From assembly GCA_015478675.1 (NCBI GenBank), contig JADMIH010000031.1:1-29549 (forward strand): 29,549 bases of DNA. Direction: 5' to 3'. Below, in pieces: positions 1 through 25,007 of the stretch. The notes beneath the pieces were generated by a model that made no database searches, was not told the origin of the DNA, and saw only the letters and a list, made by a program, of their open reading frames with translations. Position numbers and translations under genes: made by a program. Source of the stretch: Chloroflexota bacterium (GTDB lineage Bacteria; Chloroflexota; Chloroflexia; QHBQ01; JADMIH01). The first letter of the stretch is position 1; every line of letters begins with the position of its first letter.

Positions 1-66
1 GGGTAGGTGAGGGTAGGTGAGCGCTACTCCTTGCAGATTGGCTACACCCCAACTCTGAACTCTTAC
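1..66 (+). mobile_element. MITE copy A, right part only
   Basis: Right portion of the short GTAA-ended element described in full at 1479-1625; the left part lies before the window. It shows two tandem copies of a 10-bp unit (gggtaggtga, positions 1-20) and then the conserved right end, ACTCTGAACTCTTAC, ending at 66. It has no coding capacity. The right end is 14 bp upstream of a -35 hexamer at 81. Identity rests on similarity to the other copies in this window. Confidence 0.75.
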
Positions 67-80
67 CTCCTCAGCCCTCG

Positions 81-110
81 TTGACGGTTCTACAACCATT
101 CTGATATATT
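81..110 (+). promoter_or_regulatory. Sigma-70-type promoter for mce
   Basis: TTGACG at 81-86 and TATATT at 105-110 are separated by 18 bp, with a TG at 102-103 one base before the -10 (extended -10). Transcription would start near 117, giving a leader of about 40 nt before the epimerase gene. Confidence 0.6.
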
Positions 111-154
111 ATTGGGGCCAACACCCAAAACTTTGGCAAGGGGCCGAATGACAA

Positions 155-583
155 TTGCCGCGTATTATCAAGATTAGCCACATAGGGTTGGCCACTGAGA
201 GCATGGAGGAGGCGCTGAAGGTATTCTCCGGCGCGATGGGCCTTGAAGTGACTGGCAAAGAGCGAGTGGTGGGCGATGCTGTAGACGTGGCGTTTCTCTC
301 AGTTGGCGAGAGCCGTCTGGAGCTTCTTGAACCATTCGGCAACGAAGGTCCTGTACAGAAGTTCCTGGCGAATCGAGGCCCCGGTATACATCATATTTGC
401 TTTGAAGTCGAGGATTTGCCTGGCTTACTCGCCTGCCTTGAAGCCTCCGGCGCGGAATTAATAGACCGGGAGCCGCGCACCGGGGCAAATGGCAGCCAGG
501 TCGCTTTTGTCCATCCCAGGTCGGCAAATGGGGTACTTATCGAGCTGGTCGAGGCAGCTTCCATTACAGGCCGTCCTTACTGA
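155..583 (+). CDS. mce: Methylmalonyl-CoA epimerase
   Basis: Predicted to interconvert (2R)- and (2S)-methylmalonyl-CoA, linking propionyl-CoA carboxylation and methylmalonyl-CoA mutase in the cytosol. The 142-residue protein has the usual length and a single vicinal-oxygen-chelate fold pair. Visible metal-ligand positions are His9 (ISHIGLA), Glu56 (LELLEP), the His79-His80 pair (GIHHICFEVED) and Glu130 (VLIELVE), in the order typical of the family. The start is TTG at 155, preceded by AAGGGG at 138-143; an ATG at 148 is out of frame. No mutase or carboxylase gene is in the window. The next gene starts 35 bp downstream in the same direction, so co-transcription is likely. Confidence 0.92.
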   Translation: MPRIIKISHIGLATESMEEALKVFSGAMGLEVTGKERVVGDAVDVAFLSVGESRLELLEPFGNEGPVQKFLANRGPGIHHICFEVEDLPGLLACLEASGAELIDREPRTGANGSQVAFVHPRSANGVLIELVEAASITGRPY

Positions 584-618
584 GCAACTCATACAACCCC
601 GGTTTCACAGGAGCACCG

Positions 619-1416
619 ATGCTCAAAGATGAGCAAGGCACAGCGCACCACCCAACGCTGCCTCTTACATATGGCTCTTATCTGCGTGTGCCTGAACTGG
701 TAGGGCTACAATCTCCCCTCAGCATTCCCGTTGAGCACGATGAGATGCTCTTCATCATCGTGCAGCAGGCGCAAGAGCTATGGTTCAAGCAGTTATTGCA
801 CGAGCTGCACGCGATTATTCACTTCCTGGAAAACCACGAGCTTCTGCAAGCCGTACGTCTTCTGGGCAGGGCTAACGCCATACTGCGTGTGCTAGGTGAT
901 GAGGTTACCATCCTGGAGACAATGCCGGCGCAGGAGTTTCAGCGTTTCCGGCATGTCCTCTCTTCCTCCAGTGGCTTCGAGTCTGAGCAATTTCGAGAGT
1001 TAGAGCTTGCATCCGGGCTTGGCGATGCAACCTTCCTCAAGCTTGTAGGCAAGCATATGAATATGCATAGGCTGCGCTCGGCGTGGCCGCAGAGCCTGGC
1101 TGACGCCTTCCGTAAGCTACTACATGATCTCGCCTCCAATTCAGTGGATGCTTTGGTCTCCATTTACACAACACCCCAGCGTCATATGGAGATGTATATG
1201 CTCGCGGAGAGCCTTGCAGACTACGAGGCCCTTTTTGGCGAGTGGCGCTTTCACCACATCAAGCTGGTTGAGCGCACAATAGGCGACCACGCTGTAGGCA
1301 CGGCAGGCTCAACCGGGGCTGGGTACCTTACGAAAACCCTCGGCTACCGCTTCTTCCCCGAGCTTTTGGAGGCGCGTAATAAGCTCAGCGCCCTCGCAGC
1401 AGACCCGCCTGGGTAG
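619..1416 (+). CDS. kynA: Tryptophan 2,3-dioxygenase family protein
   Basis: Haem dioxygenase family that opens the indole ring of L-tryptophan to N-formylkynurenine, the first step of the kynurenine pathway. The 265 residues match the short bacterial length. Family landmarks are TYGSYLRVPEL (17-27), the helix FIIVQQAQELWFKQ (45-58), ETMPAQEF (100-107), SGFESEQFRELE (118-129, with the substrate-carboxylate Arg126), the haem-ligand His213 in WRFHHIKLVERTIG, and a GTAGSTG loop (227-233; usually GTGGSSG). The distal residue, normally His in an HQAYELW-type motif, is Gln49. Catalysis may therefore be altered, although His replacements in characterised enzymes are reported to keep some activity. 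AGGAG at 609-613 supports this ATG. No other kynurenine-pathway gene is nearby. Confidence 0.88.
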   Translation: MLKDEQGTAHHPTLPLTYGSYLRVPELVGLQSPLSIPVEHDEMLFIIVQQAQELWFKQLLHELHAIIHFLENHELLQAVRLLGRANAILRVLGDEVTILETMPAQEFQRFRHVLSSSSGFESEQFRELELASGLGDATFLKLVGKHMNMHRLRSAWPQSLADAFRKLLHDLASNSVDALVSIYTTPQRHMEMYMLAESLADYEALFGEWRFHHIKLVERTIGDHAVGTAGSTGAGYLTKTLGYRFFPELLEARNKLSALAADPPG

Positions 1417-1478
1417 GACATTTAGGGCGTTTGCGCTTCTTTGCGCTTCTTCGCAGGCTAAGCTTTGCACAGCTACTG

Positions 1479-1625
1479 GTAAGAGTTCAGAGTTAGGGTG
1501 GAGGGGCTAGCCCCCTCTCCCTTCATGGGAGAGGGGGTTGGGGGTGAGGGTGCGTAAGGGTGCGTAAGGGTACGCCTCCACAGCGACTCCTTCAAGATTG
1601 CTATACCCCAACTCTGAACAGTTAC
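1479..1625 (+). mobile_element. MITE copy B, complete, with 8-bp target duplication
   Basis: A 147-bp non-coding element with imperfect terminal inverted repeats: GTAAGAGTTCAGAGTTAGGG on the left, and on the right the complement of GTAACTGTTCAGAGTTGGGG. It is flanked by an exact 8-bp direct repeat, AGCTACTG, at 1471-1478 and 1626-1633. Inside are a GC-rich hairpin core (CCCTCTCCC..GGGAGAGGG, about 1510-1540) and 10-bp tandem units (gggtgcgtaa). GTAA termini plus 8-bp duplications are the known signature of IS66-family elements, so this is inferred to be a non-autonomous IS66-type MITE. No transposase is present in the window. Confidence 0.82.
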
Positions 1626-1659
1626 AGCTACTGCGCCCGCTGCGGCGTAGCATCGGCTG

Positions 1660-1668
1660 TGTTATAAT
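1660..1668 (+). promoter_or_regulatory. Extended -10 promoter for the response regulator
   Basis: TGTTATAAT is a perfect extended -10 (TG, one base, TATAAT at 1663-1668). The hexamer at the expected -35 position (1640-1645, CTGCGG) is a poor match, as is common for extended -10 promoters. The start would be near 1675, about 35 nt before the regulator gene. The -10 lies 37 bp after the right end of MITE copy B. Confidence 0.6.
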
Positions 1669-1709
1669 TAGTTGACCGCTGCAAAAAGAACAGGCCCCCT
1701 TGGAACATT

Positions 1710-2381
1710 ATGCGTATTCTAATTGTGGATGACGATGCACGAATCCGCGACATATTGAAGCGACAGTTGAGCTATGAAGGCTATCAGGTGGCTCTGGCAG
1801 GTGACTCTCATGAGGCTTTTGCCGAGGTTTCAGCCGACCCACCTGACCTCGTACTGCTGGACTTGATGCTGCCTGGGATGGATGGGCTTGAGATTTGCCG
1901 TAGGCTCAGGCAAGTAGATGACATACCAATCCTGATGCTCACCGCAAGGGGAGCCCTTGAGGACAAAGTAGGTGGGCTGGACAGCGGCGCTGACGACTAC
2001 CTTGTAAAGCCTTTCCAGCCTGAGGAGTTGCTTGCCAGGGTGCGCGCGCTCCTGCGCCGCAGGCAGCCCCAGAGCGGCGCACTGAAGTTCGGTGTGCTAA
2101 CAGTGGATCCATCTGCCAGACAAGTGTGGGTAGAAGAGAGGGCGGTCGAGCTATCAAGCAAGGAGTTCGATCTGCTGGAGTTATTGGCCCGCCACCCTCG
2201 ACAGGTGCTTACCCGAGAGACTTTCTATGACCGCGTCTGGGGCTACGACTTCAGCGGCGAAAGCAATATACTCGAAGTGTACATACGGTATCTGCGCTCA
2301 AAGCTCGAAGCGGCAGGGTGCCCGCACTACATACAGACGGTGCGCGGCGTCGGCTACGTCTTGCGCGAAGAGAACTCCTGA
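1710..2381 (+). CDS. OmpR/PhoB-type response regulator
   Basis: DNA-binding response regulator of 223 residues, the usual family length. The receiver domain (1-115) shows the acidic cluster Asp7-Asp9, phospho-acceptor Asp51 (LVLLDLMLPGMDG), Thr78 and Lys100 (DYLVKPF). The winged-helix effector domain (about 125-220) includes ELSSKEFDLLELLARHP and the C-terminal hairpin TVRGVGYVL. It should be phosphorylated by the histidine kinase encoded 42 bp downstream and then regulate transcription. The stimulus and target genes cannot be read from sequence. The ribosome-binding site is weak. Confidence 0.95.
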   Translation: MRILIVDDDARIRDILKRQLSYEGYQVALAGDSHEAFAEVSADPPDLVLLDLMLPGMDGLEICRRLRQVDDIPILMLTARGALEDKVGGLDSGADDYLVKPFQPEELLARVRALLRRRQPQSGALKFGVLTVDPSARQVWVEERAVELSSKEFDLLELLARHPRQVLTRETFYDRVWGYDFSGESNILEVYIRYLRSKLEAAGCPHYIQTVRGVGYVLREENS

Positions 2382-2423
2382 AGCGCCAACCTCATTCCTG
2401 GGCTGCACGCCCAAAGCATTGAT

Positions 2424-3884
2424 ATGTCACTACGCTGGCGTTTAACATACTGGTCAACCCTCACCCTGGCTGTGGTCTTCGCCGTCTTCAGCACTGTGGC
2501 GTTTCTCACAGTGCGCTATTTCGTCTACCAGTCGGTAGACGACAACTTGAGGCGGCAATCCACCATCTTGCAGGTCTATCTACTCTCCTACGGCATCAAC
2601 AATGTTTCCAACCTGAGCAACCAATCGCAGCCGGGAGCGGTCTTCTTCACCTTGATTGACCCGGCGAGTGGTCGCGTTGTTTCTGAAGACCGGCAAGTGC
2701 CTATCAGACCGGAGCTAATCTCAGACACGCTGGACCACGGCACCACCCTGACTACCATACAGGGGCAGAACAACACGCCTATTCGTGTTCTGCTACAGCA
2801 AGTTGTGAACAAAGTAACCGGGCAGGTATATGTGCTGCAAGCCGCTACACCTCTCGATGTCAGCAATCAGTTCCTCAGTGAGGCTGCGCTATCGCTGGCG
2901 GCTATATCGGTGGTGCTCATCATCGCGGCGGTAATCGGTTCGCGTGTGCTCACGGGCCGGACGCTACAGGCAGTTGAGCAAATAACGCGAAAGGCGCGCC
3001 AGATAGAGGTTTCGCAGGACCTGTCACAGCGCATCCCCGAAGGGGGAATAAACGACGAGGTCGGCCACCTGGCATCTACATTCAACCAGATGCTGGCACG
3101 GCTCGAAGCGGCATTCGAGGCGCAGAGACGCTTTGTGGCCGACTCATCGCACGAGCTACGCACACCCCTAACTGTAATCAAGAGCAACCTGCATTTGCTG
3201 CGGCGCACCACCGATCCCGGGGAGCAGTCAGAATTGATAACTTCAGCAGAGGCCGAAGCGTCCAGACTCAACCGGATGGTGAACGACCTGCTTTACATGG
3301 CGCAAATGCAGGCCGGGCATGACCTCAAGCCGGTTCTGCGGCCCGTAGAGTTGGATAGCCTGCTTCTTGACATTTTTGCACGCGCCCGCGCTATGGCTGC
3401 GATTAAGAACCAGAAGGTAATTCTCGCGCATGAAGATATAGCTGCCACAATGGGCGACCGCGACCAGATTCAACATCTCCTTCTCAATCTGGTGGATAAC
3501 GCCACCAAGTACACACCGGAAGGCGGTACGATTACTCTCGGCTTGTGGATCGATGGGCGGCGAGTGCGGATAGAAGTCTCCGACACCGGGCCCGGCATAA
3601 CCCCAGAAGGGCTTCCTTTTGTATTCGACCGATTCTATCGTACACAGGAAGCTCGACAAGTCGAGCGAAATGGGTCGGGCCTCGGCCTCGCAATCGTAAA
3701 ATCCATTGCGGAAAGTCACAACGGGGACGTAGAGGTAAGTAGCGCGCCAGGGCAAGGCTCGGTTTTCAGGGTCTTCTTGCCTTTGATCGCATCCACGCTA
3801 CAGCCAACACCCTACGATACTGGTGGCTCCGGGAACGGGAAGAATATACCTGAGACGCTCTCCGGCGTGAGGCGCGAAACGTGA
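2424..3884 (+). CDS. Membrane sensor histidine kinase
   Basis: Inner-membrane two-component sensor, 486 residues. Order of parts: short cytoplasmic start, TM1 at about 11-32, extracytoplasmic sensor region 33-152 without a recognised fold, TM2 at about 153-175, HAMP linker about 176-230, HisKA helix with phospho-acceptor His243 (SSHELRTPLT), and the ATPase domain with N-box Asn359 (NLVDNATKYTP), G1 DTGPGI (387-392) and G2 GSGLGLAIV (417-425). A tail of about 30 residues after the ATPase domain is low in complexity. It is the evident partner of the preceding response regulator. Its stop codon overlaps the GTG that may start the next gene. Confidence 0.95.
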   Translation: MSLRWRLTYWSTLTLAVVFAVFSTVAFLTVRYFVYQSVDDNLRRQSTILQVYLLSYGINNVSNLSNQSQPGAVFFTLIDPASGRVVSEDRQVPIRPELISDTLDHGTTLTTIQGQNNTPIRVLLQQVVNKVTGQVYVLQAATPLDVSNQFLSEAALSLAAISVVLIIAAVIGSRVLTGRTLQAVEQITRKARQIEVSQDLSQRIPEGGINDEVGHLASTFNQMLARLEAAFEAQRRFVADSSHELRTPLTVIKSNLHLLRRTTDPGEQSELITSAEAEASRLNRMVNDLLYMAQMQAGHDLKPVLRPVELDSLLLDIFARARAMAAIKNQKVILAHEDIAATMGDRDQIQHLLLNLVDNATKYTPEGGTITLGLWIDGRRVRIEVSDTGPGITPEGLPFVFDRFYRTQEARQVERNGSGLGLAIVKSIAESHNGDVEVSSAPGQGSVFRVFLPLIASTLQPTPYDTGGSGNGKNIPETLSGVRRET

Positions 3885-4717
3885 ATCGGGTTTCGACCTG
3901 TGATGGCGTTTGGGGGGAGAGATTGGCTGAGTACGAGAATTTGCTGATTGATTTGGATGTGGAAAAGCACATCGCTGTGGTCACCGTCAATCGGGCCGAC
4001 AAGTTGAACGCACTGAACCGGGCGCTGTTGGCCGAGTTGGACCATGCACTTGACGAAATTGCTCAGCAGAGCGATATTCACGTGCTGGTGCTAACCGGTG
4101 CGGGAGCGCGGGCCTTTGTCGCAGGCGCTGACATAGCTGAAATTGGAGGGCTAAAGGGGCAGCAGGATGGGGCGGAGTTTGCCCGCTTCGGCCAGCAGGT
4201 CTTTTCAAAGATCGAGCGGCTAACGATACCAGTGATCATGGCAATCAATGGGTATGCACTTGGGGCCGGTTGCGAATTAGCCTTGTGCGGAGATATTCGC
4301 CTGGCCGCAGATACGGCGCAACTCGGCCAGCCGGAAGTGAACCTGGGGGTGATTCCCGGCTACGGCGGCACGCAGAGGTTAGCGCGTATCGTTGGGCGCG
4401 ACAGAGCCAAGGGGATAATATTCACAGGCGAGAGATTGGGCGCGGAAGATGCGTACCGCCTCGGCATCGTAGACAGGGTGGTGCCAGCCGCAGACCTGCT
4501 TGACGAAGCGCTCAGTTTGGCTGAAAGCCTTGCTGCCAAAGCGCCCCGCGCCCTCGCGTTAGCCAAAATCGCCGTAAACGAAGGAGTATTGCTCTCTCTT
4601 GACGATGGTCTCGATCTGGAAGCCGAACTATTCGGGCAGGCTGTCGAGACGCAAGACCGCAAGGAGGGTACCGACGCCTTTCTTGAGAAGCGCCAGCCCC
4701 ACTGGCTGGGCAGATAG
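3881..4717 (+). CDS. Enoyl-CoA hydratase/isomerase (crotonase)
   Basis: Predicted to hydrate trans-2-enoyl-CoA in fatty-acid or related acyl-CoA breakdown. The oxyanion-hole and catalytic segments are intact: AFVAGADIAEI (79-88), ALGAGCELALCGD with Glu132, and GQPEVNLGVIPGYGGTQRL with Glu152. Both glutamates required by true hydratases are present. As drawn, the start is a GTG overlapping the kinase stop by 4 nt. An in-frame TTG at 3923 after a GGGGGGAG tract would give LAEYENLLIDL, which fits the usual family N-terminus better, so the first 14 residues are doubtful. Substrate specificity is unknown. Coupling to a two-component system probably only reflects gene packing. Confidence 0.92.
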   Translation: MNRVSTCDGVWGERLAEYENLLIDLDVEKHIAVVTVNRADKLNALNRALLAELDHALDEIAQQSDIHVLVLTGAGARAFVAGADIAEIGGLKGQQDGAEFARFGQQVFSKIERLTIPVIMAINGYALGAGCELALCGDIRLAADTAQLGQPEVNLGVIPGYGGTQRLARIVGRDRAKGIIFTGERLGAEDAYRLGIVDRVVPAADLLDEALSLAESLAAKAPRALALAKIAVNEGVLLSLDDGLDLEAELFGQAVETQDRKEGTDAFLEKRQPHWLGR

Positions 4718-4720
4718 ACG

Positions 4721-5701
4721 TTGTCATCTCAAGCCGAGACCACTGGTGGTTTCATCATCAGAGACGCTCGCAGCGAGGACAAAGAGCAGGTGCTGGCTTT
4801 TACAGCGCATACCTGGGACTTCGGCGATTACATCCACCACGTCTATGATGAATGGTTGGACGACAAGAGCGGGCTTTTCCTCGTAGCTGAGGAGAAGAAG
4901 TCGGGCAGGCTCGCTGCTATTGATAAACTCACTATCCTCTCTCCTACAGAGGCCTGGTTTGAGGGGTTACGTGTCAGTCCTGACTTTCGCGGGCGCGGGT
5001 TGGCCGGCGAGCTTCAACGGTATATGATCGGCGAAGCTCGGCGTTTGGGCGCGCAGACAGCTCGCCTGTTGACACTCCTCAGCAATTCGGTGGTCCACCG
5101 CAACGCTTACCGCGACGGCTTCTCCCGGTTATTTATTGTGCGCTTCTGGAAGTGGCGGGAGCCGGACATCGAGAGCGCACAGGCAAGCGATCCCAAGATG
5201 GCGATGGAGTTGAGGCGAGCCACACCTGAAGAAGCGCCATTACTCTTTGAGTGGTGGCAAAAATCATCGTCTTTCGCCACCGCAGGGCTGCTTCACCGTA
5301 GTTGGGCATTCAGCAAAACCTCGGCTGATGAATGGACCGGCAGGGCCGCTGCTGGGGAGCTATACGTACCGCAAGGGCTTGATACGGCCCTGCCGGTCCT
5401 CCCTCCCCCGACAGCCATGATTTGGCCGGAGCATGAGGATGGCAGCCTGTTGTGGAAGATAAACCTTCTGTCAGCGGCGAGCGAAGAATGGGATGGCCTG
5501 GCAAGGGGACTGATAAAAGTTGCGCAACAAGCTCGCGTTGCCCAGATCGAAGGGCTCCTTCCCGACTCCATTGACACTCTCATGGGCCTGCGAAGCGCGG
5601 GCTTTACCCCGGACGATGACAATGAGAGATTATGCCTCTTTGAGCTACGCCTCGCTCCTCATCGCTCGTCTGCCGAAGGCATTATGAAGAGACCCCTGTA
5701 G
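4721..5701 (+). CDS. GNAT-family N-acetyltransferase
   Basis: Acetyl-CoA-dependent acyltransferase of 326 residues. The N-terminal GNAT domain (about 11-145) contains the acetyl-CoA pyrophosphate loop in LRVSPDFRGRGLAGELQRYM (83-102). The C-terminal half (about 170-315) looks like a second, degenerate GNAT-like or substrate-binding domain, and its function is not recognised. The start is TTG at 4721, 3 bp after the hydratase stop, which suggests translational coupling. The last 43 bp overlap, in antisense, the 3' end of the HExxH gene on the other strand. The acceptor substrate is unknown. Confidence 0.82.
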   Translation: MSSQAETTGGFIIRDARSEDKEQVLAFTAHTWDFGDYIHHVYDEWLDDKSGLFLVAEEKKSGRLAAIDKLTILSPTEAWFEGLRVSPDFRGRGLAGELQRYMIGEARRLGAQTARLLTLLSNSVVHRNAYRDGFSRLFIVRFWKWREPDIESAQASDPKMAMELRRATPEEAPLLFEWWQKSSSFATAGLLHRSWAFSKTSADEWTGRAAAGELYVPQGLDTALPVLPPPTAMIWPEHEDGSLLWKINLLSAASEEWDGLARGLIKVAQQARVAQIEGLLPDSIDTLMGLRSAGFTPDDDNERLCLFELRLAPHRSSAEGIMKRPL

Positions 5702-6246
5702 ATGCGGCGCACGTAGGGCGGAAGCAAGCTCATATCGCCCATCGTGCCGCTGGCAAGGCCAGCGAACATCTCCCAGTCGTTACGGTCAACGAGCATACCG
5801 GGCCAGTTTTGGGCCGGTATGCCATGCGCGTAGCCAAAGGCAAGTTTGGCCGCGACTGCGTATGTTGGTTTTGTTTCCACACTCAGCCGGACAACAGCCT
5901 CTATCATCTCCTCTTTGAGAGGCTCCCTGCGGCTGTGCCACCAGGCGTGTGCCAGCTCATGTACAGCCGCTTCATGCTGGGCGCTGTAGAGCCGCACCTC
6001 CCCTGTAGACGGCTGCCAGTAGCCTCCACCACCTATGCTGCTCAAGTCGTCTATGCAGAGATTCACGTTGGCGTGGAGCCACCTCTGGGCTTCCTGTGTG
6101 AAGTGATATTTACTCATCGCAGTATCAACAAAATACCAGCACTGCTTTTGGTCCGGGTGGGGCGCGGTAGCTGGCCGGACCACACCAGCCGAACCACGTA
6201 GAGAATACAAGGCGCGAACGAGTTTTTTCAGCGTGGCAGCGATCAT
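5659..6246 (-). CDS. Putative HExxH zinc metallopeptidase-like protein
   Basis: A 195-residue protein of no family that I recognise by name. It contains a clear zinc-protease signature, AAVHELAHAWWH, with His96-Glu97-Xxx-Xxx-His100. A possible third ligand is Glu159 in DWEMFAG, 59 residues downstream, a spacing and context seen in gluzincin-like families. There is no convincing signal peptide; the basic N-terminus (MIAATLKKLVRALYSL) could be a weak membrane anchor. The ATG is supported by AAGGA about 9 nt upstream. The gene converges with the acetyltransferase gene and overlaps it by 43 bp. It could instead be a non-proteolytic zinc protein. Confidence 0.72.
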   Translation of the reverse strand: MIAATLKKLVRALYSLRGSAGVVRPATAPHPDQKQCWYFVDTAMSKYHFTQEAQRWLHANVNLCIDDLSSIGGGGYWQPSTGEVRLYSAQHEAAVHELAHAWWHSRREPLKEEMIEAVVRLSVETKPTYAVAAKLAFGYAHGIPAQNWPGMLVDRNDWEMFAGLASGTMGDMSLLPPYVRRIYRGLFIMPSADER

Positions 6247-6501
6247 TTTCCGGTTCCTTATCTATGTGCCAACTAACTATATCATATGCAACCGCTTGCA
6301 ACCCAAATGTGACTTGTTCGTTGTATATTATGAGGGTGCTGAAGTGCTTCCTGGCACGAAAACTGCTTGAAAGTGAACGCGGGCTGTTCTAAGCAAGGCA
6401 AAGGGGCCAAAGCGGACGCAAGGTACCAAAGTGGGCGCCCTATTAAACAGGCAAAAGTGAGAATCAGAAGCAATAGGCAATAACTAGGAGGAAGAAACAT
6501 T
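6247..6501. other. Divergent intergenic region
   Basis: 255 bp between the HExxH gene (leftward) and the secreted-protein gene (rightward), so both promoters should lie here. On the plus strand TATATT at 6324-6329 is a possible -10 without a good -35. On the minus strand a TATAGT-like -10 near 6275-6280 is weak. No repeat of the MITE family and no RNA gene was seen. Confidence 0.4.
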
Positions 6502-7890: not shown

Positions 7891-7915
7891 CGTAGCCGTT
7901 CAGCTACAGCAAATG

Positions 7916-17776: not shown

Positions 17777-17958
17777 GTAACTGTTCAGAGTAAGCCATGA
17801 CCCTATGGGTCACCACTACCGATGAAAATACGAGTGATTCAGCACCCCTCTATACTACTACCCTTCTCATTTCTAGAGGAGTAGGGGTGAGGGTGCGTGA
17901 AGGTACGCTTCCACAGCTACTCTAAGAAGGTTGCTCCACCTCAACTCTGAACATTTAC
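17777..17958 (+). mobile_element. MITE copy C, complete, diverged core
   Basis: 182 bp bounded by GTAACTGTTCAGAGTA on the left and ACTCTGAACATTTAC on the right. The hairpin core is much decayed (cccttctc..gaggagtagg), and the 10-bp unit gggtgcgtga is recognisable. The right flank is AATGGGAT and the left flank is CCCCGATC, so it has no matching target duplication. Copy D follows after exactly those 8 bp. Confidence 0.75.
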
Positions 17959-17966
17959 AATGGGAT

Positions 17967-18148
17967 GTAACTGTTCAGAGTATGGGCTTGGGGGGCCGGC
18001 CAGGCCCCTGACGAGGTTACAGGGGTGATTAAAGCCCCCTCTCCCTTCATGGGAGAGGGGCATGGGGTGAGGGCGGGTGAGGGCAGATGGTTCAACACCC
18101 GCACGGATACCCCAAGGAGATTGCTCCACCTCAACTCTGAACATTTAC
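17967..18148 (+). mobile_element. MITE copy D, complete, with 8-bp target duplication
   Basis: 182 bp bounded by GTAACTGTTCAGAGTA and ACTCTGAACATTTAC, flanked by exact AATGGGAT repeats at 17959-17966 and 18149-18156. It has the intact hairpin core (about 18034-18060) and a left module with gacgaggttacaggggtg that is shared with the copies at 24714 and 26309. It is inserted directly beside copy C, and its right end lies 14 bp upstream of the -35 of the SAM-riboswitch promoter. Confidence 0.82.
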
Positions 18149-18162
18149 AATGGGATCTCTTC

Positions 18163-18192
18163 TTGACATAGTGTGTACTGTTGGTGTAGACT
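18163..18192 (+). promoter_or_regulatory. Promoter for the methionine/folate gene
   Basis: Consensus TTGACA at 18163-18168 and TAGACT at 18187-18192 with 18-bp spacing. The start is expected near 18199, just before the riboswitch aptamer. Confidence 0.7.
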
Positions 18193-18203
18193 AGGCGGAC
18201 AAG

Positions 18204-18304
18204 CTAATAGAAATCGAGAGTGGTAGCGAGAGAACTGGCTCTAAGACCTACCCGGCAACCGGCAACAGCGCGGTGCCCCACCCAGCCCTCTGGGGAAGGA
18301 TTAG
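18204..18304 (+). promoter_or_regulatory. SAM riboswitch aptamer (class I or I/IV type)
   Basis: The segment TCGAGAGTGG..AACTGGCTCTAAGACC..CCCGGCAACC..GCGGTGCC follows the conserved order of the S-adenosylmethionine (S-box) aptamer. The closing P1 helix can form between CTAAT (18204-18208) and ATTAG (18300-18304). The usual GGAGGGACTGG segment is replaced by GCGAGAGAACTGG, so it is a divergent member. A terminator follows at once and the next gene makes methionine, the expected target: high SAM should stop transcription. Confidence 0.85.
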
Positions 18305-18322
18305 GCCGCTCAACGGCAATAT

Positions 18323-18349
18323 GGCCTCTCCTTGAGAGGTCTTTTTGTT
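18323..18349 (+). terminator. Riboswitch expression-platform terminator
   Basis: 8-bp stem GGCCTCTC (18323-18330) with GAGAGGTC (18334-18341), counting one G-T pair, loop CTT, followed by TTTTTGTTT. It lies 18 bp after the aptamer and about 100 bp before the start codon, so it is an attenuator rather than an end-of-gene terminator. Confidence 0.85.
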
Positions 18350-18445
18350 TGGCATATTTGGCAGTAAGCTATGGGTGGAGTGCTATGGGCGCGTCACCGG
18401 CGATCTATGAGGCAGCTTTGGCTGCCATGGGAGGCACCGACGTAA

Positions 18446-20482
18446 ATGCCTGCATCTGAAAAACGAAATATCGACCAAAGCCATCCTTTTCTCGTCCGTT
18501 TGCGTCAGGAAGGGCCCATCATCTGCGATGGCGCGATGGGCACCATGCTCTACTCTATGGGTGTGCCTGATGGACATTGCTTTGATGAATGCAATATCTC
18601 GCAGCCCGACCTGGTGCGTAGCGTGCACGAAGCATACATCAAGGCTGGCGCTGACATCATCGAGACCAACACTTATGGCGCGAACCGCTTCAGGCTGTCG
18701 TTATTTGACCTGGGTGACAGGGTGCGCCAGATCAATATGCGTGGAGCTAAGATAGCCCGGGAACTGCGCGAGGTGAGCGGCCAGCCCGTGCTCGTGGCCG
18801 GCGCTGTTGGCCCCCTTGGCAAGCCTATCCGGCCGGTAGGGGTTATCCCGGCAGACGAAGCGCGTTCTATTTTCCGCGAGCAGATAGAGGCTCTCCTTGA
18901 AGGTGGGGTTGACCTCTTTATCCTGGAGACGTTCCGCGATCTTGAAGAAATGCGCCAGGCGCTCACGGCGGTGCGCGAGGTTTGCGACTTGCCTGCGGTC
19001 GCGCAGATGACCTTCGAAGAGGACGGGCGCACCCAGATGGGCAACACCCCTGCGGAGGTTGTGGCCGCTCTTGAAGCGTTGGGCGCTGACGTCATAGGGG
19101 CCAACTGCTCGACCGGGCCTCAAAGGATGGCTCGTGTTATCTCCGAGATGGCGGCTCACTCGCACAAGCCGCTATCGGCGCAGCCCAACGCAGGCTGGCC
19201 TGAGATGGTTGGCGGACGCATTGTTTACGTCTCTACTCCTGGCTACATGGCCGACTTCGGCAAACGAATGGTCGCCAGGGGCACAAAGATACTTGGCGGC
19301 TGCTGTGGCACCACACCAGCCCATATCAAAGCACTGGTTGAGTGCCTGCGCCAGCCGGGAGAGACCTCAACGCCGGGTGAGGTGCCTGGCCGCCCATGGG
19401 GTGCCGCTAGCTCGCTCTCTTCAATCACCGCTCCACTCACCGCGGCGCAGAGCGATACGCCTGTCCCCAGGTCGGGTGGGGTAATTGAGGAGAGTGAAGA
19501 GCGTCTATCTGTGCACGATGAGGCAGGCTCTTTCGGTTGGAAGCTCGGCAAGGAATTTGTGGTCAGCATCGAGCTTGATCCGACCAAGGGAGTAAACCCC
19601 AAAAAACTTATTATCGGCAGCCAGATGCTGAAGCAGAAAGGGGTAGATGCGGTAAATGTAGCTGATAGCGCCCTTGGCCGCGCTTCGATGAGCGCGCTTG
19701 CCGTTAGCTATCTCGTGACGCAGCAGGTGGGTATAAACGCGATTGTCCATTTCACTACTCGCGACCGCACGCTGATGGGTATTCAGGCCGAGCTACTCGG
19801 CGCGCATGCAATGGGGATACGCCATATACTTGCTCTCACGGGCGATGCGCCCAACCCTGTTGAAGGGCTAGGCTCATCGGCTGTTTTCGATATTGATTCT
19901 ATTGGCCTGATCAAGCTGTTGACCAAGCTGAACAGAGGCGAAGATATAGCGGGAAACAGTATCGGCGGCACCGCCGACTTTCTAATCGGTTGCGCTTTTG
20001 ACCCGGCGGCTCGCGACTTGCCTCTGCAAATAGATCGCCTGGGACAGAAGCTGGAAGCGGGGGCGCACTTCGTCATGACGCAGCCTGTTTACGATCTTGA
20101 GCTCGTAGATCGCACTCTTGAGCACGTTAAGGCGTTCAACGCGCATGTGCTGCTGGGCATACTGCCTTTGCAGAGTTATCGCCATGCCGAGTTCCTGCAC
20201 AACGAGGTGCCGGGTATTGTCATTCCCGAGTTTGTGCTTGCACGGATGCATGCGGCAGGCGCGGAGGGTCGCCAGGCAGGGGTTGAGATGGCCCAGGAGA
20301 TATTGAAGTACGCCCAGGACCGGTACGCGGGCGCCTACCTGATGCCGTCGTTTGGCCGCTATGAGCTATGCGCCAGCGTACTAGACGTTCTGCCGCGGTT
20401 TGCGCCCGTCGGCATCAGCAGCGAGGCGTCAGGGGGCGGCGCGCACAAATACCCCAAGAAGGTTGCTCCACCCCAACTCTGA
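18446..20482 (+). CDS. Bifunctional homocysteine S-methyltransferase/methylene-THF reductase
   Basis: 678-residue fusion of two one-carbon enzymes. Residues about 15-305 are a zinc-dependent homocysteine methyltransferase (DGAMGTMLYSMG at 28-39; zinc cysteines Cys221 in GANCSTGP and Cys286/Cys287 in GGCCGTTPAH). After a linker rich in Ser and Pro (306-360), residues about 368-660 form a methylenetetrahydrofolate reductase barrel (EFVVSIELDP, NVADSALGRASM, ILALTGDAPNP, HFVMTQPVYD). Together they make and use methyl groups for methionine, in line with the SAM riboswitch upstream. GGGAGG lies 12 nt before the ATG. The last nine codons (PKKVAPPQL) and the stop fall inside a partial MITE, so the natural C-terminus has been replaced. 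Confidence 0.93.
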   Translation: MPASEKRNIDQSHPFLVRLRQEGPIICDGAMGTMLYSMGVPDGHCFDECNISQPDLVRSVHEAYIKAGADIIETNTYGANRFRLSLFDLGDRVRQINMRGAKIARELREVSGQPVLVAGAVGPLGKPIRPVGVIPADEARSIFREQIEALLEGGVDLFILETFRDLEEMRQALTAVREVCDLPAVAQMTFEEDGRTQMGNTPAEVVAALEALGADVIGANCSTGPQRMARVISEMAAHSHKPLSAQPNAGWPEMVGGRIVYVSTPGYMADFGKRMVARGTKILGGCCGTTPAHIKALVECLRQPGETSTPGEVPGRPWGAASSLSSITAPLTAAQSDTPVPRSGGVIEESEERLSVHDEAGSFGWKLGKEFVVSIELDPTKGVNPKKLIIGSQMLKQKGVDAVNVADSALGRASMSALAVSYLVTQQVGINAIVHFTTRDRTLMGIQAELLGAHAMGIRHILALTGDAPNPVEGLGSSAVFDIDSIGLIKLLTKLNRGEDIAGNSIGGTADFLIGCAFDPAARDLPLQIDRLGQKLEAGAHFVMTQPVYDLELVDRTLEHVKAFNAHVLLGILPLQSYRHAEFLHNEVPGIVIPEFVLARMHAAGAEGRQAGVEMAQEILKYAQDRYAGAYLMPSFGRYELCASVLDVLPRFAPVGISSEASGGGAHKYPKKVAPPQL

Positions 20483-20490
20483 ACACTTAC
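20449..20490 (+). mobile_element. MITE copy E, right-end fragment overlapping a gene end
   Basis: About 42 bp matching the right end of copies C and D (ATACCCCAAG..TTGCTCCACC..ACTCTGAACACTTAC, ending at 20490). The rest of the element is absent; methylene-THF reductase coding sequence adjoins directly. The element's CTCTGAAC supplies the TGA stop at 20480-20482. The right end is 14 bp upstream of the rpsO -35. Confidence 0.75.
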
Positions 20491-20504
20491 CGCTAGAAAG
20501 CGCC

Positions 20505-20534
20505 TTGTCCAGCAGTCTGCGATTGTGTTATAAT
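20505..20534 (+). promoter_or_regulatory. rpsO promoter
   Basis: TTGTCC (20505-20510) and TATAAT (20529-20534) with 18-bp spacing and an extended -10 (TGTTATAAT, 20526-20534). The transcript would start near 20541, leaving a leader of about 135 nt before rpsO. Confidence 0.75.
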
Positions 20535-20582
20535 AGCCGCGTATTGCAAAGTGAGGTGTAGTAGGAATAAAGAAGGTGTGCC

Positions 20583-20661
20583 GCCTCCCAGCAGTAGAGG
20601 ATTTGAGGCAGATGTATGAACGCCCTGGAGAATGGGCCAGCGGGGGCGTCTGACCGCCCGC
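20583..20661 (+). promoter_or_regulatory. Structured rpsO leader
   Basis: Three possible hairpins in the 5' UTR: GCCTC/GAGGC (20583-20587 with 20605-20609), GCCC/GGGC (20622-20625 with 20634-20637), and a longer GC stem at 20640-20648 with 20655-20661 that ends one base before the Shine-Dalgarno AGGAGG (20662-20667). S15 often represses its own mRNA through such leaders, so this is a candidate autoregulatory site by inference. Confidence 0.45.
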
Positions 20662-20675
20662 AGGAGGTAATCTAA

Positions 20676-20969
20676 TTGGCATTGCAGACGGAGCGTAAGC
20701 AGGAGATAATCGGCGATTATAAGATACACGACACCGATACAGGCTCGCCTGAAGTACAGATAGCTATTCTGACGACGCGCATAAATGACCTGAGATCGCA
20801 TTTCACCGCTAACAAGCACGACCATCACTCTCGGCGTGGTCTCCTCAAGATGGTGGGCCGCCGCCGGCGGTTGCTCAACTATGTGGCACGCAAGGACATC
20901 AACCGTTATCGCGACATCATAACGCGTCTCGGCCTGCGCGACTCCACGTCCCGCCCAGGGCACCTGTAA
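20676..20969 (+). CDS. rpsO: 30S ribosomal protein S15
   Basis: 97-residue S15, a primary 16S rRNA-binding protein of the small-subunit platform. Recognised from [19 protein letters not shown] (24-42), [20 protein letters not shown] (48-67) and [14 protein letters not shown]. It is slightly longer than the usual 88-89 residues because of a C-terminal extension ([11 protein letters not shown]). The start is TTG at 20676, 8 nt after AGGAGG. It is followed by pnp, the common bacterial pairing. Confidence 0.97.
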
Positions 20970-20994
20970 TTCACCTCTCAAATATCAGAGTTTT

Positions 20995-21027
20995 GCGGCC
21001 AGTTTTTCGCGTAGTGCGGCTGGCCGC
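20995..21027 (+). terminator. Hairpin between rpsO and pnp
   Basis: 8-bp stem GCGGCCAG (20995-21002) with CTGGCCGC (21020-21027), followed only by TTT. It may be a weak terminator or a processing site like the RNase III site between these genes in E. coli. Confidence 0.55.
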
Positions 21028-21120
21028 TTTGGACTACCCTGGGCCGCCGACCACTGACAGCCCTATGGAAGCAAAGCCGGTTCGCAGAAGGTAATCACCG
21101 GCTGTTGAAGGAGAATGTTT

Positions 21121-23538
21121 GTGAACGAAAGTAAGAAATTCAGTACCACGTGGGCCGGACGTGAGCTAACGATAGAGACCGGCAAGCTCGCGGAACAAGC
21201 AGCAGGCGCTTGCACAGTACGATACGGCGACACGATTATCCTGGCGACCGTTGTAGCCGCCAGGGAACCCCGCGAGGGGACCGATTTCCTTCCGCTGACG
21301 GTAGATTACGAGGAAAAGATGTATGCCGCCGGGAAGATACCGGGCGGCTTTATCAAGCGCGAGGGGAGGCCCACTGAGGTAGCTACGCTTACCGCTCGCC
21401 TCACCGACAGGCCGCTTCGCCCATTGATACCCAAGCAATGGCGCTCCGAGATACAGCTTACAATCACCACCCTATCATCAGACCAGGAGAACGAGCCTGA
21501 CTTGCTCTCCATTATAGGCGGATCGGCGGCCATGAGCCTGTCGGACGTGCCTTTTGCAGGTCCTGTCGGCTCGGCCAAAGTAGGCTATATAAATGGCGAG
21601 TTCATCCTGAACCCGACTGCCCAGCAGTTGCAGGGCTCGGAGCTGGACCTCATACTGGCGGGCACCGCTGATGCTGTAACGATGGTTGAAGCGGGCGCAC
21701 GTGAGCTTCCTGAGGAAGTTATGCTTGAGGCCATTCGCCTCGGCTTCGAGGAAGGGATCAAGCCTGCCGTCGAGTTGCAGAAGAGAATGATCGAAGAGCT
21801 TCAGCCTAAGAAGCGCGAATGGCAGGCTCCCCAGACAGATACAAGCCTTGTTGACCGTGTAAACGACTTTCTGGGCACAAGACTGCGCGAGGAAGCCAAC
21901 AACCCCAACAAGTCGGTTCGCGAGGCGCAGACCGATGCCCTCATGCTGGAAGTCTCTAACCATTTTGTCGATGCCGAAGATGTGCCTGACTTTGAGAAAG
22001 GCAAGCTGAGAGGCGATGTGGCGAAAGCCTTCGAGTCGCTGTTGAAAGAAGAAGTACGCACGGCCATTTTGGAGCGCGGCGAGCGTCCGGATGGGCGCGG
22101 GGTAACGGAGATTCGCCCTATATCGATAGAGGTTGGGGTGTTGCCGCGCACGCACGGCTCGGCTATCTTTACACGCGGGCAGACCCAGGTGCTCTCTGTT
22201 GCCACGCTCGGCACTGGCGCTGACGAGCAGATGCTTGATGGCCTCGGCATCGAGGACAAAAAGCGCTATATACACCACTACAACTTCCCTTCTTACTCAA
22301 CAGGAGAGGTCAAGAGGTCGCGTGGCCCTTCCAGGCGTGACATCGGGCATGGCGCGCTCGCCGAGCGGTCATTAGTGCCTGTGCTGCCGAGCGAGCAGGA
22401 GTTCCCTTACGTAATACGCGTGGTCAGTGAGACGCTGTCGTCCAATGGCTCGTCTTCGATGGCATCGGTCTGCGGCAGCACATTGTCGCTGCTCGATGCG
22501 GGTGTGCCGCTCAAGGCTCCTGTGGCGGGTATCGCTATGGGCCTTGTTGAGAGCAAGGATGGCACTCAGCATCGCATACTCACCGACATTCAGGGGATAG
22601 AGGATGCGTTGGGCGATATGGACTTCAAGGTGGCAGGCACAACCGAAGGTATTACAGGCTTGCAGCTTGACCTGAAGACAGCCGGGCTTGCTTTCGCGAT
22701 CATGCAGGAAGCGATGACCCAGGCGCGTGACGCCCGCCTCTTCATACTTGATAAGATGGCGCAGGTGATTTCTGCTCCTCGTGAGGAGTTGTCGCTTTAC
22801 GCGCCGCGTATCCTGAGCATCAAGATCAACCCTGAGAAGATTGGCGCCCTGATCGGACCGGGTGGCAAGAACATTCGTGGCATCACGGAGAAGACCGGCA
22901 CCAAGATTGACGTGGACGAGACGGGGCTTGTGCAGGTAGCTTCCACGGACGGAGAGAGCGCCAAGCAGGCCATTAAGATGATCGAGGGGCTGACCAAAGA
23001 GGCCGAAGTTGGCGAGATTTACCTCGGCAAGGTGGTGCGTATCCTACCCTACGGCGCTTTCGTGGAGATTTTGCCGGGCAAGGATGGGTTGGTCCATATC
23101 TCGGAGCTTGCCGACTACCGTGTCGAGCAGGTTGAGGACGTGGTGAGCCTGGGCGACGAGATCAACGTGATGGTGATAGATGTAGACCGCCAGGGCAAGA
23201 TCAGCCTGTCGCGCAAGGCTGTGTTGACGGGCGAAATGCCCCCACCACGCGCTGAACGCGAGCGAGGCGGCTTCGGTGGCGACCGCGATAGAGGTCCGCG
23301 AGATGGCGGGCGAGGCGGCTTCGGCGGTGGCGGTGATCGTCCACCACGAGAAGGTGGCTACAGCCCTGGAGGCTACGGGCAGGGTGCCGGTAGTCGAGGC
23401 CCCAGTGGCCCACCTTCGGGTGGAGGCTACGGCAACCGCCCGCCACGCGAAGGCGGAGGCTACGGCAATCGCCCGCCTCGTGAGGGTGGCGCTCCCGGTG
23501 GAGATCGCCCCCCGCGAGAAGGGGGCAATCGCTGGTAG
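21121..23538 (+). CDS. pnp: Polyribonucleotide nucleotidyltransferase (PNPase)
   Basis: Phosphorolytic 3'-5' exoribonuclease of RNA turnover, active as a trimer. Order of parts: two RNase PH-like halves joined by an alpha-helical segment (catalytic acids in GIEDALGDMDFK, near residue 490-503), a KH domain with GPGGKN (about 580), and an S1 domain (about 629-700, GEIYLGKVVRILPYGAFVE). A 95-residue tail follows, rich in Arg, Gly and Pro, with RGG-like and NRPPREGG repeats, beyond the usual length of about 700. The start is set at GTG 21121 because AAGGAG (21108-21113) is 7 nt away; the ATG at 21115 is only 1 nt from it. Protein 805 residues. Confidence 0.96.
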   Translation: MNESKKFSTTWAGRELTIETGKLAEQAAGACTVRYGDTIILATVVAAREPREGTDFLPLTVDYEEKMYAAGKIPGGFIKREGRPTEVATLTARLTDRPLRPLIPKQWRSEIQLTITTLSSDQENEPDLLSIIGGSAAMSLSDVPFAGPVGSAKVGYINGEFILNPTAQQLQGSELDLILAGTADAVTMVEAGARELPEEVMLEAIRLGFEEGIKPAVELQKRMIEELQPKKREWQAPQTDTSLVDRVNDFLGTRLREEANNPNKSVREAQTDALMLEVSNHFVDAEDVPDFEKGKLRGDVAKAFESLLKEEVRTAILERGERPDGRGVTEIRPISIEVGVLPRTHGSAIFTRGQTQVLSVATLGTGADEQMLDGLGIEDKKRYIHHYNFPSYSTGEVKRSRGPSRRDIGHGALAERSLVPVLPSEQEFPYVIRVVSETLSSNGSSSMASVCGSTLSLLDAGVPLKAPVAGIAMGLVESKDGTQHRILTDIQGIEDALGDMDFKVAGTTEGITGLQLDLKTAGLAFAIMQEAMTQARDARLFILDKMAQVISAPREELSLYAPRILSIKINPEKIGALIGPGGKNIRGITEKTGTKIDVDETGLVQVASTDGESAKQAIKMIEGLTKEAEVGEIYLGKVVRILPYGAFVEILPGKDGLVHISELADYRVEQVEDVVSLGDEINVMVIDVDRQGKISLSRKAVLTGEMPPPRAERERGGFGGDRDRGPRDGGRGGFGGGGDRPPREGGYSPGGYGQGAGSRGPSGPPSGGGYGNRPPREGGGYGNRPPREGGAPGGDRPPREGGNRW
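23422..23487 (+). repeat. 33-bp tandem repeat in the pnp tail
   Basis: Two adjacent units starting GGAGGCTACGGCAA at 23422 and 23455 encode GGYGNRPPREG twice. Related PPREGG copies flank them on both sides. Synonymous differences between the units indicate that the protein sequence is being kept. Confidence 0.8.
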
Positions 23539-23594
23539 GTCGGTTCCAGTACGGACACTGCGACGCTTGTAAAATGCAAAGAGCAGTAAGGCAG

Positions 23595-23619
23595 GACCTC
23601 TCCCAAATAGGGAGGGGTC
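23595..23619 (+). terminator. Terminator after pnp
   Basis: 10-bp stem GACCTCTCCC (23595-23604) with GGGAGGGGTC (23610-23619), one G-T pair, loop AAATA. The T-run that follows is interrupted (TCCATTTGTCCTTT), so efficiency is uncertain. Confidence 0.7.
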
Positions 23620-23693
23620 TCCATTTGTCCTTTACGCCATACTCAATGTCGCCCAAGCTAGCTTGACATAAAGCCGAACAGCAAGGTAGGTAA

Positions 23694-24503
23694 TGTGCCA
23701 CTCATCTTACGCATGGCGGGCGACCTACTGCCAGAGCTGCATTAGCGGGATTATCATTGGCGCTGGCTACCTCGCTTAAGTTGTACCCAGGCGTGCTGGT
23801 GCTTTATCTCATCATGCGGCGCGAATGGAGGGCGCTAGCCGCCTTCGCTCTTGGTCTTGTAGGCTATGGTCTGGTGGGAATGCTGCTGACCAGCCTGCAG
23901 GACACCTGGACTTATTTCACCCGCGTGCTGCCGAACCCCGGGGGCACCACAGCCTGGATGGAGAACCAGACGCTAAGCGGCTTTGTCGCCAGGCTGCTCA
24001 CCGACCGCATCCGCCTCGAGAGCTTCGCCGCTGATCTGCCTGCGCGTGCCCTCAAACTTAGCGTGCTAAACTACGCGGTTGGGGCTTTGGTCATAGGGTT
24101 GGTGCTAGGGCTGAGCTATATCCGTCGTAAGTCACAGTCACAACAGCAGCTACAGCCCCCAATTCGTAGCGGTTCGTCATACACACTTGGTTTCGCTTCT
24201 CTACTCTCTGCCACTATATTCGTACTGCCAGCCGCGTGGTTGCACTACTACGTAGCTTTTCTTCTGTCGCTGGCCGTCGCCTTCTATTGCCTGCAGGCAG
24301 ACGGTGGGTACTGGTGGCTGCACAGCCCCAGGTTGGTGACTGCTTCCGTTGTCTGCCTGGGGTTAGGCACGGTGTTGTTGATGTTCGGCAACGTGTGGTT
24401 TTTCTATAACCGCGACAACTTCGGAGGTGTCTGGAAGCTGCTGCTATCATATAAGTTCTACGGTGCTGTGGTCTTCTGGGCGGGGCTCGTGATGATGCAG
24501 TAG
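23694..24503 (+). pseudogene. 5'-truncated GT87-like membrane mannosyltransferase remnant
   Basis: An open frame from 23694 (stop at 23691) encodes the C-terminal part of a multi-pass membrane protein. It has ALAGLSLALATSLKLYP followed by YLIMRREWRAL, typical of the middle of DUF2029/GT87 polyprenyl-phosphate-dependent mannosyltransferases, and then about six hydrophobic helices. The N-terminal helices and catalytic Asp region (expected 150-200 residues) are missing, and no matching frame exists between the pnp terminator and 23694. A TTG at 23757 could start a 248-residue fragment, but there is no ribosome-binding site. It is most likely a decayed gene. Confidence 0.65.
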
Positions 24504-24713
24504 CTGGCGTTGACGCCGAAGCAAGCTATCAACAGCGAGGCACAAGAGGTGGAACCGCGTACGAACTCGATCTCACGGAGGGCCTTTGAGGAACCCGTGA
24601 TATAGGTGGCTCTCTGACTCTATACTGTGCGAAAGTTGAATCTATGCCCACGACGCTTGTTATGTAGCAACGTGGTGGTAATAACGGCTGGTGCCCCTAC
24701 GTCTATTGCGACA
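24504..24713. other. Intergenic region with a T-box-like motif
   Basis: 210 bp without a supported gene. AGGTGGAACCGCG at 24547-24559 differs by one base from the T-box antiterminator consensus, and a hairpin TCACGG/CCGTGA (24573-24578 with 24595-24600) follows. A normal stem I would have to overlap the truncated gene, and no aminoacyl-tRNA synthetase or amino-acid gene lies downstream, so this is at best a relic. Confidence 0.25.
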
Positions 24714-24801
24714 GTAAGTGTTCATGGTAGAGGTGAAGGGCCAAGCCCCTGATGGGGTTACAGAGGTGTCCCCTCCCTGCACCCCTGTTCTGAACAGTTA
24801 C
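24714..24801 (+). mobile_element. MITE copy F1, short internally deleted form
   Basis: 88 bp between GTAAGTGTTCA and TGTTCTGAACAGTTAC. It keeps the left module (gatggggttacagaggtg) but lacks the hairpin core and 10-bp repeats. The flanking 8-mers do not match. Confidence 0.65.
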
Positions 24802-24810
24802 TAGCGTTTG

Positions 24811-24963
24811 GTAAGCGTTCAGAGTATGGGTTACAGAAGTGTATTAAAGCCCCCTCTCCCTTCATGGGAGAGGGGCATGGGGTGAGGGTACGTAAGGGTG
24901 CGTAAGGGTACGCCTACACAGCTACTCCTTCAAGATTGCTACACCCCAACTCTGAACCCTTAC
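24811..24963 (+). mobile_element. MITE copy F2, complete
   Basis: 153 bp between GTAAGCGTTCAGAGTA and ACTCTGAACCCTTAC, with the intact hairpin core (about 24848-24875) and 10-bp units gggtacgtaa/gggtgcgtaa. It is separated from copy F1 by 9 bp. The flanks AGCGTTTG and CAGTAGCA do not match, so any target duplication is lost. The right end is 14 bp upstream of TTGACA at 24978. Confidence 0.78.
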
Positions 24964-24977
24964 CAGTAGCAAAGCGA

Positions 24978-25007
24978 TTGACAGGCATGTTATAATAGGT
25001 ATACATT
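24978..25007 (+). promoter_or_regulatory. Promoter(s) for the short ORF unit
   Basis: Two overlapping possibilities. TTGACA (24978-24983) pairs at 18 bp with TACATT (25002-25007). An extended -10, TGTTATAAT (24988-24996), stands on its own, since it is only 7 bp from that TTGACA. Either gives a start between about 25003 and 25014. Confidence 0.6.

Follow-up and report, generated by a model that had tools for sequence, protein, structure and literature searches.

Contig JADMIH010000031.1 of the Chloroflexota bacterium assembly GCA_015478675.1, a stretch of 29,549 nucleotides referred to here as the window, carries several copies of a short repeated element whose right ends stand at an almost constant distance upstream of predicted sigma-A-type promoters. 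These promoters precede open reading frames (ORFs) that include that of ribosomal protein S15 (Table 1). The copies resemble miniature inverted-repeat transposable elements (MITEs) in that they are short (147-182 bp when complete), bounded by inverted terminal repeats, devoid of a transposase gene and associated with 8-bp target duplications. Their ends take the form GTAA..GTTCAGAG and CTCTGAAC..TTAC, the termini in the window being GTAAnnGTTCAGAG on the left and CTCTGAACnnTTAC on the right, and a 21-base pattern of the right end matched the window 11 times with up to three mismatches, compared with 0 matches in 100 shuffles.

Elements and predicted promoters in the window

The promoters in the window are predicted from consensus matches to the -35 and -10 hexamers. 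A first-pass annotation had placed the right ends at 66, 18148, 20490 and 24963 exactly 14 bp before -35 hexamers beginning at 81, 18163, 20505 and 24978, and all four intervals were confirmed, as were the 18-bp spacers that lead to the -10 hexamers at 105 (TATATT), 18187 (TAGACT), 20529 (TATAAT) and 25002 (TACATT). The last of these -10 assignments is uncertain, because a further TATAAT stands out of place at offset 27 (offset being the number of base pairs between an element end and a hexamer). The copy ending at 1625 had been credited with a -10 within 1 bp of the same position, and the TATAAT at 1663 does lie at offset 37 instead of 38, behind a poor -35. A sixth right end, at 17958, had been overlooked; it is followed by AATGGGAT and then by a second element, at 17967-18148, that duplicates this very AATGGGAT. 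Because the second element entered the 8 bp adjoining the right end at 17958, the site before one promoter (18163) was used twice.

Of the six well-matched right ends, four are thus placed 14 bp from a -35 and a fifth 37 bp from a -10. With a sigma70-type promoter scanner, the best promoter fell at offset 36-42 for five of these six ends, as against 97 of 6000 random positions from the loci of two other carrier genomes, G002 and G003 (binomial P ~7e-9). When all 12 scored window ends are considered, six fall in this interval, the additional one being the degenerate end at 24801 (score 7.0), whose ‘promoter’ sits inside the left end of the next element. Perfect (8/8) target duplications flank two elements, 1479-1625 (AGCTACTG) and 17967-18148 (AATGGGAT); no matching duplication accompanies those at 17777 and 24811.

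Table 1. Coordinates of element copies, target duplications and predicted promoters in the window
Feature	Position	Strand	Remark
Right part of element (left end outside window)	1..66	+	right terminal repeat 46-66
Predicted promoter, -35 TTGACG 81-86, -10 TATATT 105-110	81..110	+	next ORF (glyoxalase-like) starts 155
Target duplication AGCTACTG, left copy	1471..1478	.	8/8 match
Complete 147-bp element, inverted terminal repeats, no gene	1479..1625	+	
Target duplication AGCTACTG, right copy	1626..1633	.	8/8 match
Predicted -10 TATAAT, offset 37, -35 poor	1663..1668	+	before response-regulator ORF 1710-2381
182-bp element adjoining next copy	17777..17958	+	probably the older; no matching left duplication
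AATGGGAT	17959..17966	.	flank of element ending 17958 and left duplication of next element
182-bp element inserted into same 8 bp (AATGGGAT)	17967..18148	+	
Target duplication AATGGGAT, right copy	18149..18156	.	8/8 match
Predicted promoter TTGACA-18-TAGACT	18163..18192	+	before ORF 18446-20482 (homocysteine methyltransferase and methylenetetrahydrofolate reductase (MTHFR) domains)
Truncated element, right end only	20446..20490	+	start approximate
Predicted promoter TTGTCC-18-TATAAT	20505..20534	+	before ribosomal protein S15 ORF 20676-20969
Degenerate 88-bp element-like pair of ends adjoining next copy	24714..24801	.	
153-bp element	24811..24963	+	no matching target duplication
Predicted promoter TTGACA-18-TACATT, weak -10	24978..25007	+	before RIO1-kinase-like ORF 25296-26210

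Two further observations concern the elements themselves. ORF 18446-20482 ends inside the truncated copy at 20446-20490, from which it takes its final codons and its stop (..KYPKKVAPPQL), and the interval 26320-26501, which combines a left-end-like sequence (TAAGCGTTCAGAATAGGGG) with the internal hairpin of the elements and has no recognisable right end, is probably a decayed copy. Rfam and transfer RNA (tRNA) scans of the window gave no matches.

Distance to promoters in other carrier genomes

The polynucleotide phosphorylase of the window is closest to those of G086, G088-G090 and G093 (63-66% identity; 153 of 158 genomes searched were matched), which belong to the class of Candidatus Viridilinea. 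A scan of 84,980 species with the exact end pattern returned eight loci: three in Viridilinea (G001), two in the Chloroflexota metagenome-assembled genome (MAG) RHO1_bin_4 (G002), one each in the Chloroflexota MAGs RHO2_bin_36 (G003) and IRC4_bin_30 (G004), and one in a deltaproteobacterial MAG. With one mismatch allowed, CTCTGAACNNTTAC matched 106 places in G002 and 80 in G003, the reversed pattern 10 and 6. From these genomes 58 stretches of G003, covering all 80 listed places, and 31 of G002, covering 38 exact matches and the two listed with one mismatch, were analysed. The 49 paired elements, window included, together with single ends carrying at most one mismatch gave 162 ends, and a set made non-redundant by outward sequence comprised 146, of which 134 lie outside the window (82 in G003 and 52 in G002). 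For each end the best promoter within 115 bp with a score of at least 6 was recorded, and 6000 random positions from the same loci served as controls.

The best promoter had its -10 at offset 36-42 for 49 of the 134 ends (30 of 82 in G003 and 19 of 52 in G002), compared with the 97 random positions mentioned above (P ~5e-52). The peak is narrow, with 45 of the 49 at 38-40, and every other 7-bp bin from offset 22 onward holds 0-5 ends. Counting hexamers alone leads to the same position: a TATAAT-like hexamer (at least 5/6) begins 37, 38, 39 or 40 nt outward of 5, 12, 12 and 7 of 161 ends, and is found at 0-2 ends per position elsewhere, save for one position with 4. Likewise, among the 146 ends (window included) a -35 of at least 5/6 occurs 29 times at offsets 14-16, as against 0.7 per position elsewhere, and 21 of the 29 ends chosen by their -35 alone have a -10 at a spacer of 16-18, as against 0-2 at control spacers. 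The spacer measures 17 or 18 in 42 of the 49 peak ends. The distribution in these other carriers, set against random positions, confirms that the window observation is real and general: there is a sharp peak at the promoter and none further upstream.

The first-pass annotation had also maintained that the promoters were not copied along with the elements, a view that is upheld, as making the ends non-redundant by outward sequence reduced them from 160 to 146; the candidate explanation that the promoters travel with the elements or belong to a longer repeat is excluded on these grounds. Of 53 promoter ends, 49 have the start of an ORF of at least 100 amino acids within 450 nt, in 29 cases at 45-170 nt; among the other ends 65 of 82 have one within 450 nt, and there the distances are more scattered.

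The relation between promoters and target duplications was assessed in 37 paired elements from outside the window, all 120-300 bp long and with enough flank, after removal of two duplicates. Among the 25 elements with at least 5/8 duplicated bases a promoter was scored at one end in 15, at neither in 10 and at both in 0, compared with four, three and five of the 12 elements with at most 4/8. Elements with promoters at both ends and no duplication would be the expected product of recombination between two copies that adjoined different promoters. Five elements (L103, L108, L145, L167 and L169) have this appearance, with no target duplication and promoters on both sides.

Orthologous sites in the sister genomes G003 and G002 provide a further view of the target. 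At one such site (L104/L157) different elements, of 176 and 214 bp, occupy the identical base pair, and the duplication is the same save for one changed base on one side in G002. At another (L135/L170) different elements stand 15 bp before the same -35, and the promoter beside one G002 element (L145) is present in G003 (L115) without an adjoining element. When the L160 locus was sought in G003 as an empty site, the sole match was the element itself.

The claim that the elements always face the promoter in one orientation stands for the window, where the same end does so, and fails in G002 and G003. There the promoter-facing ends are distributed by type as A1 9/28, A2 5/14, B1 11/26, B2 5/13, C1 5/9 and C2 2/9 (one C2 end from the window); fixed orientation as a general rule is excluded, since both end types face promoters. 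Among exact-match ends in other lineages the same geometry was met in 3/5 ends of G001, 3/6 of G004 and 2/2 of G216.

Transposases of the IS66 family

The elements have IS66-type ends when judged against the IS66 copies of G089 and others, namely GTAA../..TTAC termini, a GTTCAG-type core and an 8-bp duplication; across the phylum the ends of IS66 copies begin GTA and contain a TCAG core, often as GTAA..GTTCAG. An IS66 gene bounded by such ends was found in G022 (one end) and in G021 and G722 (both ends), and none in the window. In G022 a gap of 15 bp separates the stop of the IS66-family ORF, which matches PF03050, from the 14-bp terminal motif, so that a family-type end directly follows the gene. 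Four of nine G022 ends have a -10 at offset 37, one further end at 30, and those at 37 include one before tRNA-Gly, one before tRNA-Glu and one before an S2 gene. The 1439-bp IS66 copy of G021 (an Oscillochloris MAG by protein name) has TTGGCG-18-TATAAT at 14/38 beyond one end and an unrecognisable target duplication (2/8); its transposase scores 268.6 bits against the NCBIfam IS66 profile NF033517 (cut-off 180) and also matches PF03050.

A search of 400 genomes of the phylum for proteins related to the G021 transposase gave a match in 72, and G722, G726 and G633 each have one end with a promoter at 15/38. G722 and G726 are large genomes (11.0 and 13.7 Mb) in which the end pattern, with up to two mismatches, matched 18 times, as against 21 for the reversed pattern; a promoter at 36-42 accompanies seven of the matches, and in six of these it is strong (11-17) and lies at 37-39. 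In the last of several trees G021, G722 and G633, together with the unlabelled G515, are set apart from the other sequences by a branch with 97/95 support, three of the four promoter-associated transposases being placeable and G726 absent. The trees never took in G726, G617, G465, G682 or G090, whose ORFs were missed by the ORF picker, and sampling changed between them: G722 was included from the second tree and G633 in the last only, G101 was removed after the first, and G102, G609 and G054 before the last. The sequences labelled negative include G701, whose label is doubtful and which is better regarded as ambiguous, because one of its ends, in AT-rich DNA, falls at offset 36 with a score of 10.5.

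Promoter targeting as a trait of all IS66 elements is excluded by G089 and by most other Chloroflexota IS66 copies examined. Seven of the eight IS66 copies in G089 have an 8/8 duplication and the eighth 2/8, yet only 2 of their 16 ends have the best promoter at 36-42 (scores 6.2 and 6.4), a further end having its second-best there (7.7). The 8-bp duplications of these full-length copies (L204-L211) are AT-rich and the copies show no clear association with promoters, which suggests a different target habit within the same family. The IS66 copies of G039, G559, G473, G681 and G710, all with perfect duplications, had no end in the peak. The promoter-associated autonomous copies fall in one IS66 clade, and most other Chloroflexota IS66 copies examined are not at promoters. 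Searches of plasmid and viral collections gave nothing closely related to the clade; in one of them all 1153 records had less than 60% identity and the 40 listed about 27-30%, and another used a 197-amino-acid fragment of L026 as query.

Explanations for the position upstream of promoters

Integration at a fixed distance from promoters by way of the transcription machinery is familiar from the yeast retrotransposons Ty3 and Ty1, which work in a like manner and differ from the present elements in element type, domain of life and polymerase. Closer counterparts exist among bacteria. According to Guerillot et al. (2014; PMC3942029), the integrative conjugative elements (ICEs) of the TnGBS type, the insertion sequences (IS) of the ISLre2 family and several members of ISKra4 all insert at a point 15-17 bp upstream of sigma-A -35 boxes, duplicating 8-9 bp. 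The same study draws the Ty3 analogy, proposes contact with the RNA polymerase initiation complex, attributes orientation to the asymmetry of the ends, and reports both orientations for the ISKra4 group (p-MULT 4) where the ends are alike. The present elements, with insertion mostly 14-16 bp upstream of the -35 and 8-bp duplications, share the fixed distance of TnGBS and ISLre2 (p-MULT 3), and here too orientation is probably set by how far the two ends differ. However, TnGBS and ISLre2 are autonomous IS or ICEs, mostly of Firmicutes, with a Mutator-type transposase, whereas the elements described here are mostly short MITEs of Chloroflexota in which both the ends and the linked transposases are of IS66 type rather than Mutator-type with TnGBS, ISLre2 or ISKra4 terminal repeats. 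They share with the IS66 family the GTAA/TTAC termini, the 8-bp duplication and the transposase profiles (NF033517/PF03050 in G021, PF03050 in G022), and depart from most other Chloroflexota IS66 copies examined in their location at promoters. No report of promoter targeting by IS66 was found in the literature searched, including passages of PMC3281130 and PMC3189936, and by word count the term IS66 does not occur in PMC3942029. The behaviour is already known; its carrier, an IS66 clade with its MITEs, looks new.

Any explanation has to account for what is observed, namely the position and sharpness of the peak, the 8-bp duplications, the IS66-type ends, the recurrence in several Chloroflexota genomes and the one sister-genome promoter that lacks an element. 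The elements would best be understood as non-autonomous, MITE-type relatives of one IS66-family clade, whose transposition would be directed to the DNA just upstream of sigma-A-type promoters, into an 8-bp target centred about 11 bp before the -35 and near -46 relative to the inferred transcription start. The transposase may contact promoter-bound RNA polymerase (sigma region 4 or the alpha C-terminal domain) or DNA bent by the polymerase. We consider directed transposition through promoter-bound RNA polymerase quite likely: the position is directly observed, and the contact is what would explain it. A transposase that recognises a promoter-associated motif or bend, with no role for RNA polymerase, would also encounter both hexamers at fixed places, and an anchor test does not clearly separate them: an extra spacer base shifts the -10 by 0.70 bp and the -35 by 0.30 bp, such that the distance tracks the -35 slightly better without being decisive. 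Yet the duplicated 8 bp and the flank to offset 13 are nearly free of consensus (at most 0.35 bit per position), both hexamers vary while their spacing holds as reading by a holoenzyme predicts, and IS66 and ISKra4, with different transposases, arrive at nearly the same spot, all of which leaves a motif or bend doubtful. The holoenzyme would be the most economical guide, because two different enzymes use nearly the same position and because what is read is bipartite and variable.

The first-pass annotation had offered two options, guided transposition behind promoters or selection among insertions, and the former is well supported by the peak, the duplications and the shared orthologous site. 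Under selection, insertion would be widespread, and only copies that leave the promoter intact and have an end where it is of use upstream, either as insulation or with the terminal repeat serving as an activator-like site near -61, would survive. All observed copies are indeed survivors, the promoter-facing ends have ORF starts close downstream, and the terminal repeat would sit where a class I activator binds; tolerance of harmless positions alone, however, predicts a broad upstream tail, whereas the counts beyond offset 42 are at background, and does not predict a peak only about 4 bp wide despite several unrelated element interiors and the use of both ends. In addition, the 17 elements with the best duplications (at least 7/8 bp) have one promoter end in 11 cases, none in six and two in none. 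Selection for one exact architecture may still be compatible with the data, and selection as a whole seems improbable. It is likewise improbable that mobilisation in trans by a Mutator-type transposase of the ISKra4/ISLre2 group accounts for the MITEs, their IS66-like ends being a coincidence. Fragments matching ISKra4 occur in G001, G004 and G089, and three Chloroflexia ISKra4-type copies (L247, L253 and L258), obtained as a positive control from 28 scanned loci of which eight had a bounded element called by script and three scored, have a -35 at 15-17 and a -10 at 38-40, nearly the geometry seen here. These copies nevertheless carry other ends (GGGTGCGC-type in L253 and L258, GGTTSCACC in L247), duplications of 8 or 9 bp and a transposase of another family, and the family end directly after the G022 gene, like the GTA-starting, TCAG-core ends of the phylum, points to IS66. 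Moreover, G003 and G022 gave no ISKra4 match, and the weak G002 match (30.7 bits) lies in a different Mutator-type ORF that appears IS256-like, as read from the sequence itself rather than by a family search.

Several observations weigh against transposition of IS66-clade MITEs directed by promoter-bound polymerase. Neither G002 nor G003, the richest carriers and both fragmented MAGs, yielded an IS66 transposase (PF03050), so that the mobiliser of their copies is unseen, and no transposase could be attributed to the window itself. In ten of the 25 elements with duplications neither end has a scored promoter; ends chosen by their -10 alone have a -35 of at least 4/6 TTGACA at spacer 16-18 in only 12 of 31 cases, as against 6 and 2 at control spacers; and at L135/L170 the adjoining 8-9 bp differ sharply although the promoter is identical. 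Strong promoters also occur at other places, with offset 30 in L032 (G004) and L271 (G022) and 24 in L029, and the exact-match ends of G340, G382, G184 and G265 gave together 0/8, three of them having a best, low-scoring promoter at 38-40. Among relatives of the G021 transposase with at least 38% identity, G483 is weak (4.0) and G639, G646 and G621 have no clear promoter at the ends found; G515 has only a doubtful end, without a promoter, and in G617, G609, G009, G676 and G537 that search recognised no end.

As a separate observation, the strong promoter in L271 and L032 stands at 7/30 rather than 14-16/37-40, that is 7-10 bp closer to the end, about the length of one target duplication.

With regard to the origin of the trait, we lean towards the scenario that recruitment by promoter-bound sigma-A RNA polymerase arose independently in an IS66 clade, which thereby converged with the Mutator-type TnGBS, ISLre2 and ISKra4 elements on almost the same base-pair position, and that the MITEs of this clade spread through Chloroflexota promoters, including those of tRNA and ribosomal-protein genes, as a general rewiring layer upstream of the -35. 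If this is true, promoter-directed transposition in bacteria is not confined to one transposase lineage, and the arrival of two DDE transposase families at nearly the same spot behind the -35 would suggest that a feature of the host, the RNA polymerase holoenzyme, guides them, a proposition that could then be tested directly by comparison. Such elements would also allow sigma-A promoters of uncultured genomes to be marked from sequence, and in each carrier genome dozens of genes could have been severed near -50 from the control regions upstream of them.

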